DNA of 64,000 bases from Nitrospirota bacterium (GTDB taxonomy: Bacteria; Nitrospirota; Thermodesulfovibrionia; Thermodesulfovibrionales; Magnetobacteriaceae): NCBI GenBank assembly GCA_015233015.1, contig JADFYO010000001.1, forward strand, positions 1 to 64,000. Reading direction: 5' to 3'. The notes beneath the pieces were generated by a model that was not told the origin of the DNA, searched no databases, and was given only the letters and a program-made list of their open reading frames with translations. Shown here in pieces: positions 54,281 to 64,000 of the stretch (position 1 is its first letter; each line of letters begins with the position of its first letter). The translations under genes were made by a program, and so were the position numbers.

Positions 54281-55480
54281 TCAAGGGTGAAAGTGTCTAA
54301 AGATAACATATTCAAGCGCCGGTGCGATAAAATAAAGCATGACCGCGGGAATTATTTTTTTATACAGTCCCCATACGTCCGCTTTAAAATAATCCCTCGT
54401 AAGAATAAGACATACGTGGACCGGCGATAAAAGCACGCCCGCATAACCCGCTCCAAAGGCAAATGAAAACGAATGCGCGTCCAGCCCGGGCAGGCTCATA
54501 AACAACGGAAAGGCACTGCCCACAAAGGCCAGCGTAAATCCAGTAAGAAGCCCTGTCACAAATGGCAGAAGAAACAGTATTGGTAAAAGCGGTATGTGGC
54601 GGGCAATAAAATAATTGCTGATATTCGCAACAGCGCCGGAGCTGTCAAGCGTGGCCTTAAACATCATCACGCCCAAAATCAACAAAACCACCTCCCTGTT
54701 AAACCCATACCTTAATACCCTCAACATCTCCTTTACGCTGTACCTGAAATAAATCATGAGCAGGAAGACCATCACAACAAGCGCATAGTGCAGCTTTATG
54801 CCAAACACAATAACAAGCACAAGCAGTATAACAAAGGGCATAAAACTAAAGAACGCCCTGTATGACCTGTTTTCCACCCGCGGGAAAGTACCCCTTACGC
54901 CCTTCATGCAAAATAACAGGCCGATTGCCATCATAGCCAGCGCATAGCTTAGATTCAAGAGAACCATCTCCCTCATTCCGATACGGGTAATCAGTGTGGC
55001 CAGTATCAGTCCCGGGTAAAGCGGCAGAACAGCCTCCCACGGGTGCCTGTACCAGTAATTGGTAAAGGCCTTGTCCTCCTGGGTCAAATTAAGCCCCTTT
55101 GCGGAACTGTCCACCATTGGACAGGAAAAATACGCCCCTCCTATCGATGGCAGCATCCCGATTAACAGGGGCATCGAGACAAGCACGAACTTTTTGTTCC
55201 TTAACACACCCTTTACCGCATCGGTCATCAGGTTAAGTATGTTTTTCTCTCTGAGAACCATCTCAAGCATCCTGATAAATGTCAGGGCAATAGTCAGCTC
55301 AAGCGTTGCCTGAGACACTATGGCAGAGTGAACTGTAGCGGCAATCGCCGCCGGTCTCATCCAATATATGGCAAAAAGCATCGCTGAAGCGGTAATCAGC
55401 ACGTAGCCGACATGCCATTTCAAGCGAAGCAGAATTATCATCACCACAAAAACAGCGGTTATCCCAACGATATCAAACAT
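54281..55480 (-). CDS. DUF401-family integral membrane protein (transporter-like)
   Basis: 399 residues with about ten transmembrane helices and the DUF401 pattern around P-S-I-G-G-A-Y-F-S-C-P-M and G-A-G-Y-A-G-V-L-L-S-P-V-H. The family is related to gluconate/H+ and Na+ transporters; substrate unknown. Its ATG shares one base with the cca stop (TGATG), so it is translationally coupled to cca. Confidence 0.85.
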   Translation of the reverse strand: MFDIVGITAVFVVMIILLRLKWHVGYVLITASAMLFAIYWMRPAAIAATVHSAIVSQATLELTIALTFIRMLEMVLREKNILNLMTDAVKGVLRNKKFVLVSMPLLIGMLPSIGGAYFSCPMVDSSAKGLNLTQEDKAFTNYWYRHPWEAVLPLYPGLILATLITRIGMREMVLLNLSYALAMMAIGLLFCMKGVRGTFPRVENRSYRAFFSFMPFVILLVLVIVFGIKLHYALVVMVFLLMIYFRYSVKEMLRVLRYGFNREVVLLILGVMMFKATLDSSGAVANISNYFIARHIPLLPILFLLPFVTGLLTGFTLAFVGSAFPLFMSLPGLDAHSFSFAFGAGYAGVLLSPVHVCLILTRDYFKADVWGLYKKIIPAVMLYFIAPALEYVIFRHFHP

Positions 55481-56874
55481 CAGCGCACCCCCCTTGCGTG
55501 CAGCAACTCTTCAACCAGGGAAGCGGCCTTGTCCTTTGAGTCTATCAATCCCTCGAGTGTCTTTAACTCGACAGCCCCTATGATTTCACTAAACAACGGT
55601 GACGGCGTAAGGCCATAGGTCTCAATTAAATCCCGGCCAGTGATAAACCGTGGAGCTGTCTTTCTCGGCATGTATTGACACTCGTAAAAATCCAGCATTC
55701 CCCTGCATATCCCGATAGTCTCTTCCTTTCCTTCTGGTTTCGCGCCTGCATCTGCCGCCCACACAACCACCAAACCATATATATCATCCCCCACAGTATT
55801 TAATAGCCTGATAAGCGGTTTCTTCATCCTGGCAAGATCAAGCCGCCCTACCCGTTTGAACGCCAACATTCTCATGTGATTTTTTACGAGCATAGTTACG
55901 AATTCGGTCTCTTTCACAGAGGCATTAAATCTGCTTAAAATATTGGCGGCAATCTCCTCACCCTCATGCTCGTGGCGGTGAAATGTGCACTGACCATCTG
56001 CTGACTGACCCTGCGATTGATATTTCCCAACGTCATGAAGCAGTATAGAGAGTTTTATAAGGCCGCACTTGAGTGGATTCTTATCCAGCCATGCCCTAAG
56101 ATCAGGGGTAATCGGCAAACCCGCATTATTAATAATCTCCTCTGCCTGCCTATACGCGGCCATCGTGTGGTCAAAGACATCGAGGTGATGATAGCGGTTT
56201 TGCCTCAGTCCTCTGAGCGGCTCAAGCTCTGGAAGCAACTCAAAAAGAAGACCCGTATCACGCAATAATTTTAAGATTTCTGTTGAGCTACAGGCTTGCA
56301 ATAGCATCTTAAACTCTGCCCACACACGCTCCACGGCAGACACTGAGATAAGTCCCCTGAGTGCAGTGATGGCATCGAGCGTCCCCTGCTCTATGGTAAA
56401 TCCCAGTTCGGCGGCAAGCCTGAAGGCCCTTAACATCCTGACGGGGTCGTCGGACAGATTATCCTTTGATACCATCCTGATTACCTTGTCATTTACATCG
56501 TCCATGCCGCCGGTTACGTCTATGGGCTTATTCACCGGATTGAAAATCGAAACAGCAATGGCATTTACCGTAAAATCACGGCTCAGGAGGTCGCCCGCGA
56601 TGCTCCCTCCCCTAAAAGACGTAAAATCAAAAATGCAGTCCCCTTTTACAACCCTGGCGGTAGGAAATCTCTCATGCAGCACGACATATGCTCCATTAAT
56701 AGATTCGGCAAACCCCCTCGCTATGTGAAAAGGGCTATCACTCAGGACAAAGTCATAGTCCCGGACTTGCCGGTTTAAAATTAAGTCTCTAACAGTACCA
56801 CCTACTATATAGCTCTCCCGACATAAGCCAATGCACTCTATAAGAGTGTCGATATATGGTATCTTCCTTATCAC
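55480..56874 (-). CDS. cca: CCA-adding tRNA nucleotidyltransferase with HD domain
   Basis: 464 residues, class II poly(A) polymerase/CCA family. V-G-G-T-V-R-D-L-I-L and D-Y-D-F-V (metal aspartates) at the start, R-A-F-R-L-A-A-E-L-G-F, then an HD phosphohydrolase domain (L-L-H-D-V-G-K, H-R-H-E-H-E-G). It repairs or adds tRNA 3' CCA. Since the tRNA-Pro here has no encoded CCA, it is needed for that tRNA. It lies 7 bp downstream of the AckA fusion. Confidence 0.93.
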   Translation of the reverse strand: MIRKIPYIDTLIECIGLCRESYIVGGTVRDLILNRQVRDYDFVLSDSPFHIARGFAESINGAYVVLHERFPTARVVKGDCIFDFTSFRGGSIAGDLLSRDFTVNAIAVSIFNPVNKPIDVTGGMDDVNDKVIRMVSKDNLSDDPVRMLRAFRLAAELGFTIEQGTLDAITALRGLISVSAVERVWAEFKMLLQACSSTEILKLLRDTGLLFELLPELEPLRGLRQNRYHHLDVFDHTMAAYRQAEEIINNAGLPITPDLRAWLDKNPLKCGLIKLSILLHDVGKYQSQGQSADGQCTFHRHEHEGEEIAANILSRFNASVKETEFVTMLVKNHMRMLAFKRVGRLDLARMKKPLIRLLNTVGDDIYGLVVVWAADAGAKPEGKEETIGICRGMLDFYECQYMPRKTAPRFITGRDLIETYGLTPSPLFSEIIGAVELKTLEGLIDSKDKAASLVEELLHARGVR

Positions 56875-56881
56875 TGTAGTG

Positions 56882-59236
56882 TTAAATAAATGCCCTTGAC
56901 TGGATTGAAACTATGTGGGCAGTGGAGTCCTCTGTTACACCTGCATAGTTTGCCTCATCGGTATCGAGATGCAGCTCTAGCGTATAGGAAGGGTTAACCC
57001 TTACAAAGACATCGCCAAAGATAACGTTCTTACTGCCAGAAACTCCTACCCTCAAGACATCATAATCTCTCAGCCCATAAGAAAGGGCGTCTTGGGGGCT
57101 CATGTGAATATGGCGCTGGGGGCAGATGACACAGCTGTTGAGTTTGATGCTGCCGGCAGGCCCATCAATTGTAACAGAGGCCGCGCCCTCAAGGTCACCG
57201 GAAAGCCGGACGGGGGCGTCGATGCCAAGTTTGAACTCCCCTGTGCGGCTTATCTCCACCTGTGTTTCTCTTTTTAGCGGTGCGACTATTCTGACGTTTT
57301 CTATTGTGCCAAGGGGCCCCATCAAACTCACTGTCTCCTCTGAGATAAACGATTGCGGCTGCCTAAGCTGGTGTTTCTTTGTGAGCGTCTTTCCCTCGCC
57401 AAAGAGGGCGGCGAAATCTTTTTCACATAAGTGGACGTGATGCCCTGCAACGTAAATGGGAATCTGCCTGTTCATTTTCACATCTATAGTGGCAGTTGCC
57501 TCTCTCACCTTCGATATATTCAGGGCATGGAGGGTCTCTCTGGCAATCATTCGTTCTTCGTCGGCGGCTACGACAAGTATCTTAATCTGCTGGCCAAGGG
57601 CCGAGATCTCCTCAATATGTCCCCTCTTGACCCTTGCCTTCTCGTTTGCCTCTTTCGAGAGCACCAAGCCAATGTGTTCAAGGCCGTGGCATACGCGGCC
57701 GCGTATATCAGCAGAGTTCTCGCCAATTCCAGCCGTGAAAATCAATGCGTCAATACCACCCAACACCGCCGCATACGCGGCAATATATTTCTTCAGCCTG
57801 TAACAAAACAGAGACACCGCGGTCTTAGCCCTTGCATCACCTGCACTAGCCGCCTCAAGTATTTCCCTCATATCGTTACTAAGTCCTGTGAGGCCCTTAA
57901 GACCGCTTTCCTTGTTCAGCAAATTATCGACATCCTTAACACTTAGTCCAGAGTTTAAAAGATAAATTAGAGCCCCGGGGTCAATATCGCCGCAGCGCGT
58001 ACCCATGACCAGGCCTTCCATCGGCGTCATACCCATGCTTGTATCGACACTAATGCCGTGGTCTATGGCGCATATAGAAGCCCCATTGCCAAGATGGCAC
58101 GATATTACTCTCAGCTCCCTGACGCTGCGCTTGAGATATGTCGCCGCCGTCAATGAGACATAGTTATGATTAGTACCGTGGAACCCGTAACGGCGAATGT
58201 TTTCAGTGATGTGATATTTCTCCCCAAGATTGCTGGAGATTGCGTATAAATAGGCGTTTTCGGGCATGTTCTGATGAAACGCCGTATCAAACACCGCCAC
58301 CGCGCCCTTGTGCGGCAGGAGTTCCCGCATCGCCTCGATGCCGGCAAGATTATACGGGTTGTGAAGAGGAGCTAATGGGATACACTGCCTTATTCCCTCG
58401 ATTACATCGTCAGTTATCACGGCCGAGTTCTTAAACTTATCCCCACCGTGCACTACCCTATGCCCGACAGCGTCTATTACATCAAAAGCGGCGATAACGC
58501 CAATTGAGGGATCAGTCAGGGCGGCCTCCATTTCGGCGAAGGCCTTTGGGAAATCCGGCACTTCGACCTCTCTTTTCACCTCTGATTTCAGAGACTTTAT
58601 CTTGTGATATGACCCGCCTGTCCCGATTTTCTCAATCAGTCCCTCCATCATTGGAACTGGGTCAGACGTGTCAAAGAGCGAGTATTTTAACGAGGAGCTG
58701 CCGCAGTTTATGACCAAAATCTTCGATGGTTTAAGTGCAGATGTAAAGTTTAAGTCATAGGGGTCGGGGTTTTCCTTCCTCGATGCCTTGTACTGAGCTA
58801 TAATGGCCTCGTTCTGTTCCTTTTGGGTCATCCTCTTACTAATCAGCGAGGCTATCTTAATTAGAACCGCAGAGTTTCTCACAATCACCTCGGAGAAGCT
58901 ATCGCGGGCAACGGCAATGCACTGTGACGGCGCAACGGCAACAACATCGGCAACCGCCGGCTCCCCGGTCATAATAGACATCTCACCGAACACATCACTG
59001 GATTTTAGCGTCGCAGTAAATAATTTGTCGCCCGAAGCATCCGTAAAAATCACCTCGCCCTTGCCTTTTACGAGAATGTAGAGAAACCTGCCCGGCTGAC
59101 CGCGCGATATTATTTTTTGTCCCGGACTGTAGTCCTCAACCGTCGAGGCTGCTATCAGCGTATCAAGTTCACTATCTGTCACATCTGAAAAATAATGAGT
59201 TGACTTGAGAAATGCCTTTATATCCATTATATCCAT
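56882..59236 (-). CDS. Cyclic-nucleotide-binding-like domain / acetate kinase / PduL phosphotransacylase fusion
   Basis: 784 residues with three parts. (1) 1-145: Crp-type CNB fold with F-G-E-M-S at 83-87; the usual phosphate-binding Arg after it is Ala or Val (P-A-V-A-D-V). (2) about 170-575: complete AckA, with N177-C-G-S-S-S, R260, D317 (F-D-T-A-F-H), H353-G-T-N-H, R414-C-G-D-I-D-P-G and G-I-G-E-N-S at 503. (3) about 590-784: PduL, with zinc histidines in G-H-H-V-H-L (598-603), R-H-I-H-M (708-712) and E-L-H-L-D-T-D-E-A-N (754-763). Known activities of the parts would turn acetyl-CoA and ADP into acetate and ATP without releasing acetyl-phosphate. The CNB part may control it. Start ATG follows GGGGGGCGG. 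Confidence 0.95.
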   Translation of the reverse strand: MDIMDIKAFLKSTHYFSDVTDSELDTLIAASTVEDYSPGQKIISRGQPGRFLYILVKGKGEVIFTDASGDKLFTATLKSSDVFGEMSIMTGEPAVADVVAVAPSQCIAVARDSFSEVIVRNSAVLIKIASLISKRMTQKEQNEAIIAQYKASRKENPDPYDLNFTSALKPSKILVINCGSSSLKYSLFDTSDPVPMMEGLIEKIGTGGSYHKIKSLKSEVKREVEVPDFPKAFAEMEAALTDPSIGVIAAFDVIDAVGHRVVHGGDKFKNSAVITDDVIEGIRQCIPLAPLHNPYNLAGIEAMRELLPHKGAVAVFDTAFHQNMPENAYLYAISSNLGEKYHITENIRRYGFHGTNHNYVSLTAATYLKRSVRELRVISCHLGNGASICAIDHGISVDTSMGMTPMEGLVMGTRCGDIDPGALIYLLNSGLSVKDVDNLLNKESGLKGLTGLSNDMREILEAASAGDARAKTAVSLFCYRLKKYIAAYAAVLGGIDALIFTAGIGENSADIRGRVCHGLEHIGLVLSKEANEKARVKRGHIEEISALGQQIKILVVAADEERMIARETLHALNISKVREATATIDVKMNRQIPIYVAGHHVHLCEKDFAALFGEGKTLTKKHQLRQPQSFISEETVSLMGPLGTIENVRIVAPLKRETQVEISRTGEFKLGIDAPVRLSGDLEGAASVTIDGPAGSIKLNSCVICPQRHIHMSPQDALSYGLRDYDVLRVGVSGSKNVIFGDVFVRVNPSYTLELHLDTDEANYAGVTEDSTAHIVSIQSRAFI

Positions 59237-59250
59237 TCACCGCCCCCCTT

Positions 59251-59345
59251 ATGTTTTAGTAATGCATTCATGTTTTAGTAATACATTCATGTTTTAGTAA
59301 TGCACTCATGTTTTAGTAATGCACTCATGTTTTAGTAATACATTT
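59251..59345. repeat. Five 19-bp tandem repeats
   Basis: ATGTTTTAGTAATGCATTC in five head-to-tail copies with few changes. Copy 5 covers the last codons of the flavin reductase gene (C-I-T-K-T-stop), and the other four copy the same bases downstream of its stop. The array separates it from the ackA fusion start and so fills the fusion's 5' region. Confidence 0.92.
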
Positions 59346-59834
59346 AACTATCTCGCCCAAGTACATCCTATGATAGTCCTTCAGCGGGTAATTGGCGTCA
59401 ATTTCCGGGTCAAGAAAATGGCCTGGGTCTATGTCGTGGTAATAGATCTTCCTGCACAGGAAGACCAGACGAGCCTCTTTGAAGTATATCGTGCCATTGT
59501 CTTCGACGGGGGTAAGTCCGGTTTCGGCCATCTTGTTGGTGTCTCTGCCTGAGTGAGTGCCGCAGAAAAGAAGTGTCTTTTTGTGCTCTTCCCCAAAGAA
59601 AGAGAGTGTGAACATGTCCGACTTTTCCATAAATCCATAGGTATGCCGGGTGGGGCGAATGACGCAGGTGCAAATCTTTTTGGCCCACATGATGCCGAAG
59701 CCGCCCCAGCTGGCGGTCATGGTGTTGAATTTATCAGCAGTACCGGCGGTAACGAGCATCCACTGTGTGCCAATCACCTTAAATGGGTTATCGGAAAGGT
59801 CGTCGGGGTTTACCTCAATGAACTCATCAGTCAT
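59325..59834 (-). CDS. Flavin reductase-like FMN-binding protein
   Basis: 169 residues with the flavin reductase/FlaRed fold: P-F-K-V-I-G-T-Q-W-M-L-V-T-A, N-T-M-T-A-S-W-G-G-F-G and a C-V-I-R-P-T-R-H-T-Y segment. It probably reduces FMN or transfers electrons in the cytoplasm. It lies between tandem repeats on both sides and upstream of the AckA fusion on the same strand. Confidence 0.88.
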   Translation of the reverse strand: MTDEFIEVNPDDLSDNPFKVIGTQWMLVTAGTADKFNTMTASWGGFGIMWAKKICTCVIRPTRHTYGFMEKSDMFTLSFFGEEHKKTLLFCGTHSGRDTNKMAETGLTPVEDNGTIYFKEARLVFLCRKIYYHDIDPGHFLDPEIDANYPLKDYHRMYLGEIVKCITKT

Positions 59835-60021: not shown

Positions 60022-61176
60022 TCAGTCTGTTTTGGATTTCAGTGCTTTTTCGAATACTTCTCGTGCGTTGAATGTGCCGTCTATGGCCTGTTTGGGACAT
60101 TTCGCTACGCAGATACCACAGCCGATACATCTTGCCGCGTCTATCGTGTGCAGCTTTTTCATCTCCCCTGTGGCCGCGTTTACAGGGCATACCTTCATGC
60201 ACATGTTGCAGCCTATACACTTGCTTGCCGTTATGACGGCCTTTCCCCTAGTTTGGAGCAGGTCGACGATCGCATGCGTCGGGCATTTTGTTACACATAG
60301 TCCACATACCCGGCATTTCTCTATGTCTATTTTTGATACATTATCAGTAATCGATGGGGCATCAAACGGACATACCTTCACACACATCCCACAGGCTATA
60401 CAACCTACCTGACAGTTTTTTCTCGTTGCGGCGCCTTTGTCCTTCGAATGGCACGCAACAAACACCGCTTTTGACCCGGGCAATATTTCTATAACCTTCT
60501 TAGGACAAGCCTCGGCACACTTCCTGCAGCCCGTGCATTTCTTTAAGTCAACCACCGGCAGGTCAAATTCGTTCATATGCAAGGCGTCAAAAGGGCATAC
60601 AGACGCGCACGTCCCATAACCAAGGCACCCATACGCACAGGCCTTATCCCCGCCACCGGCAAGCACCGCCGCACGGCAATCTTTTACACCCTCATATTTA
60701 AACTTCTTTATTGATTTCTTACAATCGCCCTGACACATTATCCTTGAATACACGGGTTCCATCGCTACCGCCTGCTTGCCGGTTATCGCGGATATGATTT
60801 CGGCGGCATGTTTACCAGCCGGCACACAAAGAATTGGTTTTACATCGGCATTCGCTACCACCGCCTCGGCATACTGCTGACAGCCGGCATATCCGCACGC
60901 ACCACACTGTGCACCCGCAAGTACATCACGCACCTTTTCTACCCGAGGGTCCATCTTAACGGAAAACTTCTTTGCCGCAAACGCAAGCCCAAATCCAAAT
61001 ATCGCCCCTATTCCCGCTATAAATATCAGCGTAAACTTTATTGTCGCGGCTATATCGACTGTCTCTTTGGCCTCTATTCCGCCGCCCACTCCTGCAAAAG
61101 GCAACGGTATATGACTCGCTAAAGCGATTAGCCCGCTTAATATCTCGTGTACTATGTTTATATCCAAGTTAATCAT
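60022..61176 (-). CDS. rnfB: Rnf complex subunit B, extended multi-cluster form
   Basis: 384 residues. A membrane anchor (about 40-65) is followed by the DUF4-type C-G-x-C-G-Y-A-G-C-Q cluster. Six ferredoxin-like C-x-x-C-x-x-C-x-x-x-C-P runs are seen: C-A-S-V-C-P, C-T-G-C-R-K-C, C-I-A-C-G-M-C, C-R-V-C-G-L-C, C-I-G-C-N-M-C and C-I-G-C-G-I-C. About seven [4Fe-4S] clusters would thus be present, more than in proteobacterial RnfB. RnfB accepts electrons from reduced ferredoxin on the cytoplasmic side. It ends the operon and is 12 bp after rnfA. Confidence 0.94.
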   Translation of the reverse strand: MINLDINIVHEILSGLIALASHIPLPFAGVGGGIEAKETVDIAATIKFTLIFIAGIGAIFGFGLAFAAKKFSVKMDPRVEKVRDVLAGAQCGACGYAGCQQYAEAVVANADVKPILCVPAGKHAAEIISAITGKQAVAMEPVYSRIMCQGDCKKSIKKFKYEGVKDCRAAVLAGGGDKACAYGCLGYGTCASVCPFDALHMNEFDLPVVDLKKCTGCRKCAEACPKKVIEILPGSKAVFVACHSKDKGAATRKNCQVGCIACGMCVKVCPFDAPSITDNVSKIDIEKCRVCGLCVTKCPTHAIVDLLQTRGKAVITASKCIGCNMCMKVCPVNAATGEMKKLHTIDAARCIGCGICVAKCPKQAIDGTFNAREVFEKALKSKTD

Positions 61177-61188
61177 CTTTAATAATCC

Positions 61189-61782
61189 CTATGATGTTAT
61201 TATTCCCGCAAATCCCGTAAACGCGAGAGCTATCAGTCCCGTCGTAACAAATGCTATCGGAAGCCCCCTGAACGGAACCGGCACATCCGCAATCTCAAGC
61301 TTCTCTCTGATACTTGCCATTATAACAAGAGCAAGCGCAAACCCCAGCCCAGAACCCAGCCCCAGCGTTATTCCCTCGAGAAACGAATAGTGCTCTCCGG
61401 CGTTTATAAGCGGCACCGCCAGTATTATACAGTTTGTCGATATCAGAGCTAAATACACTCCAAGTTTATAATACAGCCCTGGACTTACCTTCCTCATTAT
61501 CGTATCCGAACTCTGCACAAAGGCCGCTATTACACCTATAAATATCACTATCTTCAGAAACGTCAGATCAAGCGGTACCATCACAAAATTAAATATCACC
61601 CAGCTTAGAGCCGCCGATATCATCATCACCGCCGTAAACGTTATGCTCATTCCAACCGCCGTCTCTACCTTCTTCGTCACACCAAAAAATATGCACAGCC
61701 CAAGGAACCTCGTGAACACAAAATTATTTATCAGCGAGGACGCTATAAATATCTCAAATAGTTTTGTCAGTTCTTTTTCCAT
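61189..61782 (-). CDS. rnfA: Rnf complex subunit A
   Basis: 197 residues, six transmembrane helices, the normal length. The opening N-N-F-V-F-T-R-F-L-G-L-C and L-I-S-T-N-C-I-I-L carry the two conserved cysteines thought to ligand an [Fe-S] centre with RnfE. Between rnfE and rnfB on the same strand. Confidence 0.95.
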   Translation of the reverse strand: MEKELTKLFEIFIASSLINNFVFTRFLGLCIFFGVTKKVETAVGMSITFTAVMMISAALSWVIFNFVMVPLDLTFLKIVIFIGVIAAFVQSSDTIMRKVSPGLYYKLGVYLALISTNCIILAVPLINAGEHYSFLEGITLGLGSGLGFALALVIMASIREKLEIADVPVPFRGLPIAFVTTGLIALAFTGFAGIITS

Positions 61783-61797
61783 ATCATTGCCTCCACA

Positions 61798-62460
61798 TTA
61801 ATGGCCAGATGCACCGCCGGCCCCTTTGCCTCCGTAAAACCTTATGTCTATCCAGTTGAAAAATGCCATCAATATGCCCGTTGCTAAAAACCCGCCTGTC
61901 GGCAGAAGCATTATCAGGAGCGGTTTTGCACCTATTATAGAAAAACCCCACAGCGCGCCCTTTCCAAGCATTTCCCTAAAGAAACTAATAGTTGCAAGGG
62001 AAAACATAAACCCTACACCCATACCTATGCCGTCGAAAAAAGACGGTACTATCTTGTTTTTGCTTGCAAATATCTCAGCTCTCGTAAATATAGACGCAAA
62101 CGCCACTATGAGCTGTATGTATAGGCCCATCTGCTTATACGCCTCGCGTGCAAAGGCCGCCATCGACAAGTCGGCAACGGTTACCCAGCCAGAGATTATC
62201 AGCATAAAAATCGGCATTCTTATTCGGGGATGTATGAACACCCTTATGGCCGATACTGTTACATTTGACATCACGTTTACAAACACGACGGCAATACCCA
62301 TCAACACGCCTGTCTTGAGGCCCGTCGTTACGGCTATAGCCGGACACAGGCTGATTGCAAGGCGGAATATGGCGTTTTCTTTAAAAATGCCGCTTAGGGT
62401 TACTTTCCAGTAATCTATTTTTTGAGAATTAGTGGCTTCCATGCGGGTTGTCTCCTTCAT
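61798..62460 (-). CDS. rnfE: Rnf complex subunit E
   Basis: 220 residues, membrane protein homologous to RnfA. L-S-L-C-P-A-I-A-V-T and the paired A-F-A-S-I-F strand are seen. Two ATGs are possible: 62460 (GGGGGG six bases upstream, overlapping rnfG) and 62442 (AAGGAG nine bases upstream). The former gives a 32-base overlap with rnfG. Confidence 0.93.
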   Translation of the reverse strand: MKETTRMEATNSQKIDYWKVTLSGIFKENAIFRLAISLCPAIAVTTGLKTGVLMGIAVVFVNVMSNVTVSAIRVFIHPRIRMPIFMLIISGWVTVADLSMAAFAREAYKQMGLYIQLIVAFASIFTRAEIFASKNKIVPSFFDGIGMGVGFMFSLATISFFREMLGKGALWGFSIIGAKPLLIMLLPTGGFLATGILMAFFNWIDIRFYGGKGAGGASGH

Positions 62461-63049
62461 GCATTCCCCCCGTAGTTGAGGGGTCGCTGACCCCTTTAAG
62501 GGCCTTCTCTAAGAATATATCGCCGTTTCTTATCCCATCCTCCGTAACTGCCCTCGAGGATATTGTAGCGCCGGTTATCGCCTGAACATACTCAGTTGTC
62601 TCCTCTTTTTTTACCTTCAGGTGTTCAATATCCTTGCCTTTAAACTGCTCTATAAACGACGGAGTGGCAACCTCGTCCCCAAGTCCCGGGGTCTCAGCCT
62701 GATGTAATATAGTCACCTTCTGTACTATTAAGTCCTTGTTTACAGCAAATAGTATGTTTATATAACTCGAATATCCTTTGGCAAAGGTCTGCACGATATA
62801 GCCCATTATCTGACCGTCTTTCTTAGCCGCATAGTACTCGGCATGTTTTTCGTGGGGATGCCAGTCGCCGAGCTTTTCTATTTTATCGGCCTCGGGTATC
62901 AATTTTTGCAGGGCGTCTTTCTTCTCCTCTTCGTTATGCTGAAATATTATCGGAGACGTATAGGCGTAAATTAACGCAAGGAGCACTCCGCCCACCACAT
63001 ATATTACGAGCAGGTTCAGGGTTATCTTTATAAGTTCTTTCGTGCTCAT
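62429..63049 (-). CDS. rnfG: Rnf complex subunit G
   Basis: 206 residues. One N-terminal membrane helix (about 10-30) and a periplasmic FMN domain. The covalent FMN site is I-T-G-A-T-I-S-S at about 168, with the threonine as attachment point. It overlaps rnfD by four bases. Confidence 0.95.
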   Translation of the reverse strand: MSTKELIKITLNLLVIYVVGGVLLALIYAYTSPIIFQHNEEEKKDALQKLIPEADKIEKLGDWHPHEKHAEYYAAKKDGQIMGYIVQTFAKGYSSYINILFAVNKDLIVQKVTILHQAETPGLGDEVATPSFIEQFKGKDIEHLKVKKEETTEYVQAITGATISSRAVTEDGIRNGDIFLEKALKGVSDPSTTGGMHEGDNPHGSH

Positions 63050-64000
63050 TTCTTCGCTTTCTTAGCCCCAAAAACAGATGTCCGGAAGTTTCTGTCAATA
63101 AGCGGCGCAAAACAATTCATGATCAAAATAGCAAACATAACGCCTTCCGGGTAACCGGCCTTCAATCTTATTAATATCGTCAAAAACCCGCACCCTATCC
63201 CAAACAATATCTGGCCCCTCGACACGGTCGGACATGTTACATAATCCGTTGCCATGTAAAACGCCCCAAGCATCAAACCGCCGCTTAGGAGATGCACTAT
63301 CGGGTCCCCTGTGAACAGCCCCTCTTTGCCGCCGAAAATCCACACCCCCAGTGCCACCGTGGCAAGGAATGACAATGGAATCCTAAGGGAAATATACCGG
63401 CGATAAACCAAAAACGCCGCCCCTATCAGTATCGCTATCATAGAGGTCTCACCAAGCGACCCGGGCCTGTGTCCTACGAGAAGTTCTTTATATAAACTTA
63501 ACTTATCGCCAAATACCTCGATGAGTTTCCCCATGCCCTCTTCTTTGAGAATTCCAAGCGGCGTGGCGGTTGTCTTTGCGTTTACGGTCAAAAAAGCCGC
63601 ATCGGGAACCGACCATGTAGTCATAGCGCGCGTCCATGTTATCAGGGCAAAGGCGCGTCCTATCAGCGCCGGATTAAATATATTATACCCAAGTCCGCCA
63701 AAGAGCTGCTTAGTTATCCCTACGCTTACAAACGCGGCAACCAGCGGTATATAAAAAGGTACCGTAGAGGGCATATTTAGACCGAGCAGAAGTCCCGTCA
63801 AAAAGGCACTCCCATCGGCTAATGTTATCTCCTTCCCCGCCACTTTCTGGACAAACCACTCGCTTAACAGTGAGCCGATTATACACAGCGCTGTCACATA
63901 TAACGCCTTGGGGCCAAAATAATATATCCCCATCACAAGGGCCGGCAACAGACTGATACTCACCGTCCACATTATCCGCGGCACCGTCTCCTCACTGCTT
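63046..64000 (-). CDS. rnfD: Rnf complex subunit D (5' end beyond the window)
   Basis: At least 318 residues and multiple membrane helices. The covalent FMN site T-T-A-T-P-L and G-S-L-G-E-T-S motifs are clear. The GTG at 63984 is not a convincing start: the frame stays open to 64000, and the encoded S-S-E-E-T-V-P-R-I-M-W matches the usual RnfD interior. So the true start, and rnfC, should lie past the window edge. The order is thus (C)-D-G-E-A-B. Confidence 0.96.
   Translation of the reverse strand, partial: SSEETVPRIMWTVSISLLPALVMGIYYFGPKALYVTALCIIGSLLSEWFVQKVAGKEITLADGSAFLTGLLLGLNMPSTVPFYIPLVAAFVSVGITKQLFGGLGYNIFNPALIGRAFALITWTRAMTTWSVPDAAFLTVNAKTTATPLGILKEEGMGKLIEVFGDKLSLYKELLVGHRPGSLGETSMIAILIGAAFLVYRRYISLRIPLSFLATVALGVWIFGGKEGLFTGDPIVHLLSGGLMLGAFYMATDYVTCPTVSRGQILFGIGCGFLTILIRLKAGYPEGVMFAILIMNCFAPLIDRNFRTSVFGAKKAKK

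Follow-up and report, generated by a model that had tools for sequence, protein, structure and literature searches.

Reciprocal active-site loss in paired copies of a fused CNB-acetate kinase-PduL protein from Nitrospirota

A relative of Candidatus Magnetominusculus (Nitrospirota) carries two full-length copies of a gene that joins a Crp/PKA-type nucleotide-binding (CNB) domain, acetate kinase (AckA), and the phosphate propanoyl/acetyltransferase PduL in a single chain, and the two copies have lost active-site residues in opposite halves. The copy in the window (the whole 64,000-nucleotide stretch of DNA analyzed here), called A, has a canonical acetate kinase and an altered PduL; the other, B, has a PduL with its catalytic residues in place and an acetate kinase with an altered ATP site. 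We favor, with moderate confidence, a division of labor in which A serves as acetate kinase and B as phosphotransacylase, the two being halves of a duplicated, once-bifunctional enzyme that would replace Pta-AckA.

The fused chain and its active sites

The window gene is an open reading frame of 784 codons without an internal stop. Its start is probably at 59227 (residue 4) rather than at 59236, since a duplication of ATGGATATA accounts for the first three codons and the alignment with most relatives begins only at residue 4. The features of the gene are as follows.

56882..59236, minus strand: CNB-AckA-PduL fusion gene, 784 aa (A copy), identified by reading frame, Pfam, and homologs in nine genomes of the family
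58877..59137, minus strand: CNB domain (Pfam cNMP_binding)
58940..58990, minus strand: phosphate-binding-cassette segment FGEMSIMTGEPAVADVV, with Glu kept, Arg absent, and Asp three residues on
58745..58765, minus strand: linker motif DPYDLNF between CNB and AckA
57539..58723, minus strand: acetate kinase domain with canonical active-site positions
56936..57457, minus strand: PduL domain with zinc ligands retained
57350..57352, minus strand: codon for Ser629, equivalent to PduL Gln77 (acyl preference) by alignment to 5CUO, role from PMC4784909
57272..57274, minus strand: codon for Lys655, equivalent to PduL Arg103 (phosphate contact) by alignment to 5CUO, role from PMC4784909

All three Pfam matches are well above their respective cutoffs: cNMP_binding at residues 34 to 120 (68 bits), Acetate_kinase at residues 172 to 566 (464 bits, spanning the full profile, 1-392/392), and PTAC/PduL at residues 594 to 767 (212 bits, a complete domain). 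The NCBIfam models TIGR00016 for AckA (464 bits, cutoff 293) and NF011652 for PduL (216.5, cutoff 209) are matched as well. The initial annotation, made from the DNA letters alone, had described three complete parts in this order, and the reading frame and both profile collections bear it out. The structure prediction of the full chain that it had proposed as a check agrees: an AlphaFold2 model built on 21 relatives (mean pLDDT 78) matches the solved structures of AckA (1g99; TM 0.86 by target) and PduL (5cuo; TM 0.95), and Foldseek also returned CNB proteins, one of which (6h4g) is a cAMP-independent regulatory subunit of PKA from Trypanosoma brucei. AckA and PduL share one uninterrupted frame, and the same fusion recurs in many independent genomes from several phyla; a frameshift or a chimeric assembly, either of which had been named as a way the fusion could prove spurious, is therefore ruled out.

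Active sites were compared at 23 positions with the AckA of Methanosarcina and at 18 positions with the PduL structure from Rhodopseudomonas (5CUO). The window AckA is identical at 23 of 23, which upholds the claim that it has all of its catalytic residues. The PduL zinc histidines reported earlier are likewise there, as part of a complete set of six zinc ligands (His48, His50, Glu109, His157, His159, and His204), and Gln74, Gln107, and Ser127 are retained. Other positions have changed. Arg103, which in the passages of PMC4784909 on these residues contacts phosphate and is stated to be present in all PduL homologs, is replaced by Lys, as it is in L027 and L047, so that three species of the genus share the replacement. 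Gln77, connected with acyl preference in the same passages, is Ser; Lys70 is His, Leu99 is Val, and Ser45 has changed too. The initial annotation had mentioned neither the replacements of Arg103, Gln77, and Lys70 nor the second copy in the genome or the probable start at residue 4. It had singled out H-H in place of R-H in the first PduL histidine motif; the substitution is real, but H-H-x-H is found in nearly the whole CNB-bearing family and is no peculiarity of the window protein.

A second copy with the opposite losses

The second full-length copy, B, lies at C119:13077-15404 and is 49% identical to the window copy. No complete stand-alone AckA or PduL was found in this 99%-complete genome. 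One A copy of the window type and one B copy were present in each of the 11 genomes of the group that we examined. The AckA of the A copies is canonical at all 23 positions across these genomes, with N335H in L036 as the sole exception. Five of the 11 have no PduL, the PduL of L036 has lost zinc ligands, and that of the remaining five is altered: it is heavily changed in L034, it carries R194M and lacks a loop segment in L029 (which retains Arg103 and Gln77), and in the three species of the window's genus it shares the replacements at positions 103, 77, 70, and 99 with the zinc ligands kept.

In the B copies of the same 11 genomes, every readable catalytic PduL position is kept (the copy in L160 is truncated by a contig end); these PduL domains have H-H in place of R-H and vary at residue 70, as does most of the family. 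Their AckA is changed at Gly9, Asp283, Arg285, and Glu385 (MtACK numbering) in 11 of 11 copies and at Asn211, to His, in 10 of 11. Since other conserved active-site residues are still there (Arg91, His123, Asp148, and His180 in all, Arg241 in all but one), the B kinase looks to have been stripped specifically of its nucleotide site. In MtACK, Asn211 is on the ATP beta-phosphate, Arg285 lies along the adenine ring, and Ser10 and Ser11 are among the PHOSPHATE1 residues; Asn211 variants show a 6- to 200-fold loss, and single Arg285 mutants have a kcat down only about 7- to 9-fold (PMC4390882). The B copies carry several such ATP-site changes together.

A third copy was considered and rejected: an AckA fragment (C86:1-120) and a PduL fragment (C119:16907-17032) are short pieces, 98 to 99% identical to gene B, which lie inverted at contig ends beside repeats and were taken as assembly ends. 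Gene B fragments of the same kind, short, inverted, and next to repeats at the ends of contigs, are found at L003:1-127 and at the end of L046; these too are probably assembly ends.

Selective constraint differs between the copies in the same sense as the residues. Pairwise dN/dS within the genus (Nei-Gojobori, own script) is 0.06 to 0.07 for AckA and 0.14 to 0.20 for PduL among A copies, and 0.07 to 0.15 for AckA and 0.04 to 0.07 for PduL among B copies; synonymous sites are rather diverged (pS 0.43 to 0.61), which makes the absolute values rough, yet the order of AckA and PduL is still reversed between A and B. Syntrophales pairs have low and similar values for the two domains. With dN/dS far below 1 throughout, all domains are still maintained and none is near neutrality. 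PduL identity to the Syntrophales proteins is 0.36 to 0.54 for A versus 0.64 to 0.68 for B, in every genome having both.

In AckA trees the B copies form one clade, the Syntrophales proteins form another, and the A copies make up an unresolved grade; the 11 B copies thus count as one event and not as independent observations. The trees leave the branching order of A, B, and Syntrophales unresolved, and the A/B split may predate or postdate the transfer between phyla. On the simplest reading of this history, both sites worked in the ancestral chain, the kinase then lost its ATP site once, in the ancestor of the B clade, and PduL later decayed several times independently in different A copies. 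This decay has run its full course in genus g2, where an AckA without further domains occurs together with B and with an additional, third PduL, 347 to 348 aa long (L039:8459-9505, L042:8288-9334, and L045:8454-9497). In its N-terminal part, this third PduL has weak similarity to part of the C-terminal region of AckA (E roughly 1e-5 to 1e-6), and these genes are apparently remnants of a broken fusion.

Distribution, CNB domain, and gene neighborhood

A search for the CNB-AckA-PduL order, also proposed in the initial annotation, located it in the window's Nitrospirota family, in the order Syntrophales, and in a Rhodocyclales-type family. The nearest relatives of the window protein are those of Candidatus Magnetominusculus xianensis HCH-1 (G148; 81% identity) and Candidatus Magnetominusculus sp. 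LBB02 (79%). All nine sampled genomes of its family have the window gene or derived forms, and in a sample of 296 Nitrospirota genomes, long matches spanning CNB and AckA were confined to that family. AckA matches within frames of 1214 to 1228 aa in three other Nitrospirota (G050, G200, and G204) possibly represent another AckA fusion.

By our own count of full-length matches, the complete chain is present in 25 of 149 Syntrophales-order genomes sampled, at about 52% identity, and most of these chains keep both active sites apart from Asn211 of AckA. Almost all of these Syntrophales fusions (L164-L192), canonical in other respects, have this residue replaced by Ser; the change costs the Methanosarcina enzyme about 200-fold, and the Cryptococcus enzyme has Ser naturally (PMC4390882). 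In the Rhodocyclales-type family (that of an Azonexaceae bacterium), the complete chain was counted in 19 of 121 genomes. PduL is intact in 9 of 9 loci read, and the AckA of all nine has S10I, S12Q, K14H, N211I, G239P, R285H, G331D, N335T, and E384D; the two genomes checked have a separate, nearly canonical AckA. Judged by these residues, the Rhodocyclales-type chains, with an intact PduL and a predicted ruined kinase, are a case parallel to the B copies.

AckA-PduL fusions that have no CNB domain occur in Myxococcota, Gammaproteobacteria, Bacteroidota, and others, and in eight Syntrophales-order genomes. In the latter (L195-L202), PduL Gln74 is replaced by Ile, Leu, or Met. Two further AckA-PduL frames (L059:3410-5701 and L056:23-3181) have N-terminal regions of about 165 and 475 aa, respectively, that give no Pfam match.

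The CNB domain keeps the FGE Glu and lacks the Arg that normally binds the cyclic-nucleotide phosphate. The initial annotation had noted as much for the window protein, and the observation extends to the family: the Arg is missing in 51 of 51 aligned homologs, 40 of which have an Asp three residues on. The Rhodocyclales-type copies are also without the Glu, and some have an Arg one position earlier. The DPYDL-type linker between CNB and AckA is nearly invariant among 49 Nitrospirota and Syntrophales homologs. Canonical cyclic-nucleotide signaling probably exists in the organism, since the Arg is kept in roughly half of the genome's other CNB domains and 11 class III cyclase domains are encoded there as well. 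These cyclases, together with the retained fold and Glu, might suggest that the domain is a working allosteric cAMP or cGMP sensor that switches the enzyme, a question separate from which half is active. With the Arg absent from every homolog aligned, an Asp usually nearby, the Glu lost as well in the Rhodocyclales-type copies, and Arg-bearing CNB proteins elsewhere in the same genome, we consider such a sensor highly improbable and a response of this domain to the canonical signal unlikely. The domain would more readily be a sensor of some other small molecule, or a structural or dimerization module.

The genes around the fusion gene are as follows.

54281..55480, minus strand: DUF401 membrane protein, likewise kept beside A copies
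55480..56874, minus strand: poly(A) polymerase/CCA-adding-type gene, 7 bp downstream of the fusion gene and adjoining A copies in several genera
59325..59834, minus strand: flavin-reductase-domain gene, upstream of the fusion gene and kept within the genus
60022-63984: Rnf-type electron-transport cluster, upstream of the fusion gene

The order of A gene, poly(A) polymerase/CCA-adding-type gene, and DUF401 gene is conserved in several genera. Comparison of gene neighborhoods gave no consistent conserved neighbors for the B or Syntrophales copies. A functional link between the fusion gene and the Rnf cluster was considered and dropped, as neither of the two closest relatives has the cluster next to the gene. 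A tandem repeat of 19 bp, ATGTTTTAGTAATGCATTC, is present five times at 59251-59344, between the fusion gene and the flavin-reductase gene; the array looks like a local expansion, since the nearest relative has one similar copy and LBB02 has none.

Proposed roles of the two copies

The window's genome encodes the catalytic subunit of CO dehydrogenase/acetyl-CoA synthase, and a search of it for Pta gave only a 33-bit partial match in a 347-aa frame that is probably PlsX. Given the presence of the former and the absence of Pta, the A/B pair would be the visible means of converting acetyl-CoA, by way of acetyl phosphate, into acetate and ATP. In the division of labor that we favor, B would form acetyl phosphate from acetyl-CoA and phosphate, its AckA domain retaining the fold but no normal ATP site, and A would use acetyl phosphate and ADP to make acetate and ATP, its PduL domain, still folded and constrained, probably being weak, inactive, or changed in specificity. 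Together they would stand in for the missing Pta-AckA downstream of CO dehydrogenase/acetyl-CoA synthase. Acetate kinases form dimers and the AckA fold is retained in both chains, so A and B could plausibly form a complex in which acetyl phosphate passes from one chain to the other. We offer only tentatively the fuller proposal that the reactions were split by reciprocal site loss, that the damaged domains were kept for a channeling A-B complex, and that the CNB domain gates this complex by a ligand other than a cyclic nucleotide.

Some observations pull against this division. The window PduL may be active, since its six zinc ligands are kept in three species and its dN/dS is far below 1; Lys can sometimes replace Arg, and the A copy of L029 retains both Arg103 and Gln77. 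The B kinase might likewise have slight activity left, given how modestly single Arg285 mutations lower the kcat of MtACK. The initial annotation had read the window protein as one polypeptide taking acetyl-CoA to acetate and ATP, which would be fully bifunctional and could channel acetyl phosphate. The three domains behind that reading are all there, AckA and the PduL zinc site are intact, Gln74, Gln107, and Ser127 are present, purifying selection acts on every domain, and Syntrophales homologs hold both sites in one chain. It becomes doubtful for the window protein because its PduL has lost Arg103, given as universal in the relevant passages of PMC4784909, along with Gln77, Lys70, Leu99, and Ser45; because the PduL of the A copies is under relaxed constraint and was repeatedly lost in sister genera; and because a paralog has a perfect PduL and a broken kinase ATP site. 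We regard full bifunctionality of the window protein as unlikely, and the Syntrophales homologs would make a better case for it.

The window PduL could also act on a different acyl-CoA, which would make A and B two acyl-specific enzymes instead of a kinase and a transacylase. Position 77 is the one that the passages of PMC4784909 link to acyl preference, and the three species of the genus all have Ser and Lys at positions 77 and 103 while their zinc ligands are kept. Deletion of the domain or loss of its zinc ligands in sister genera nevertheless points to decay more than to a newly acquired function that is needed, and B would lack an intact kinase as partner for its PduL; we think this reading quite improbable.

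Fusion of AckA to PduL and channeling of acetyl phosphate were already proposed by Erbilgin et al. in 2016 (PMC4784909), whose fusions share with the window protein the presence of both enzymes in one chain; the CNB domain, the paired copies, and the reciprocal site loss are not part of the fusion description given there. Our AckA tree separates the CNB-bearing proteins, as a clade, from the sampled CNB-free fusions. The window AckA shares its fold and all active-site residues with Methanosarcina thermophila AckA (1TUU/1G99) but sits between CNB and PduL and has a partner copy with an altered ATP site. The window PduL shares its fold and zinc ligands with Rhodopseudomonas palustris PduL (5CUO), from which it differs in being fused to AckA, in the Arg103, Gln77, and Lys70 replacements, and in the H-H-x-H form of its first motif. 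Relative to the CNB domains of CRP and PKA, whose fold and FGE it shares, the family's domain lacks the phosphate-binding Arg and has no DNA-binding or protein-kinase partner domain. The literature searched contained no CNB-AckA-PduL protein, no family-wide absence of the CNB Arg, and no reciprocal site loss. The CNB-bearing form and the reciprocal decay therefore appear to be undescribed, while the idea of AckA-PduL channeling is not new.

In a study of a marine magnetotactic Nitrospirota, the Pta-AckA pathway was named as a trait distinguishing that organism from freshwater relatives (PMC10278575). The A/B pair would offer such organisms the same conversion by way of PduL, invisible to a search for Pta. 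The family also contributes many CNB domains, attached to metabolic enzymes, for which conventional binding of cyclic nucleotides is unlikely. The pair amounts to a natural experiment in which a fused bifunctional enzyme would have been divided again after duplication; the undivided form survives in Syntrophales, and a parallel form whose kinase appears to be dead exists in the Rhodocyclales-type family. These natural variants make the old question of channeling by fusion testable.
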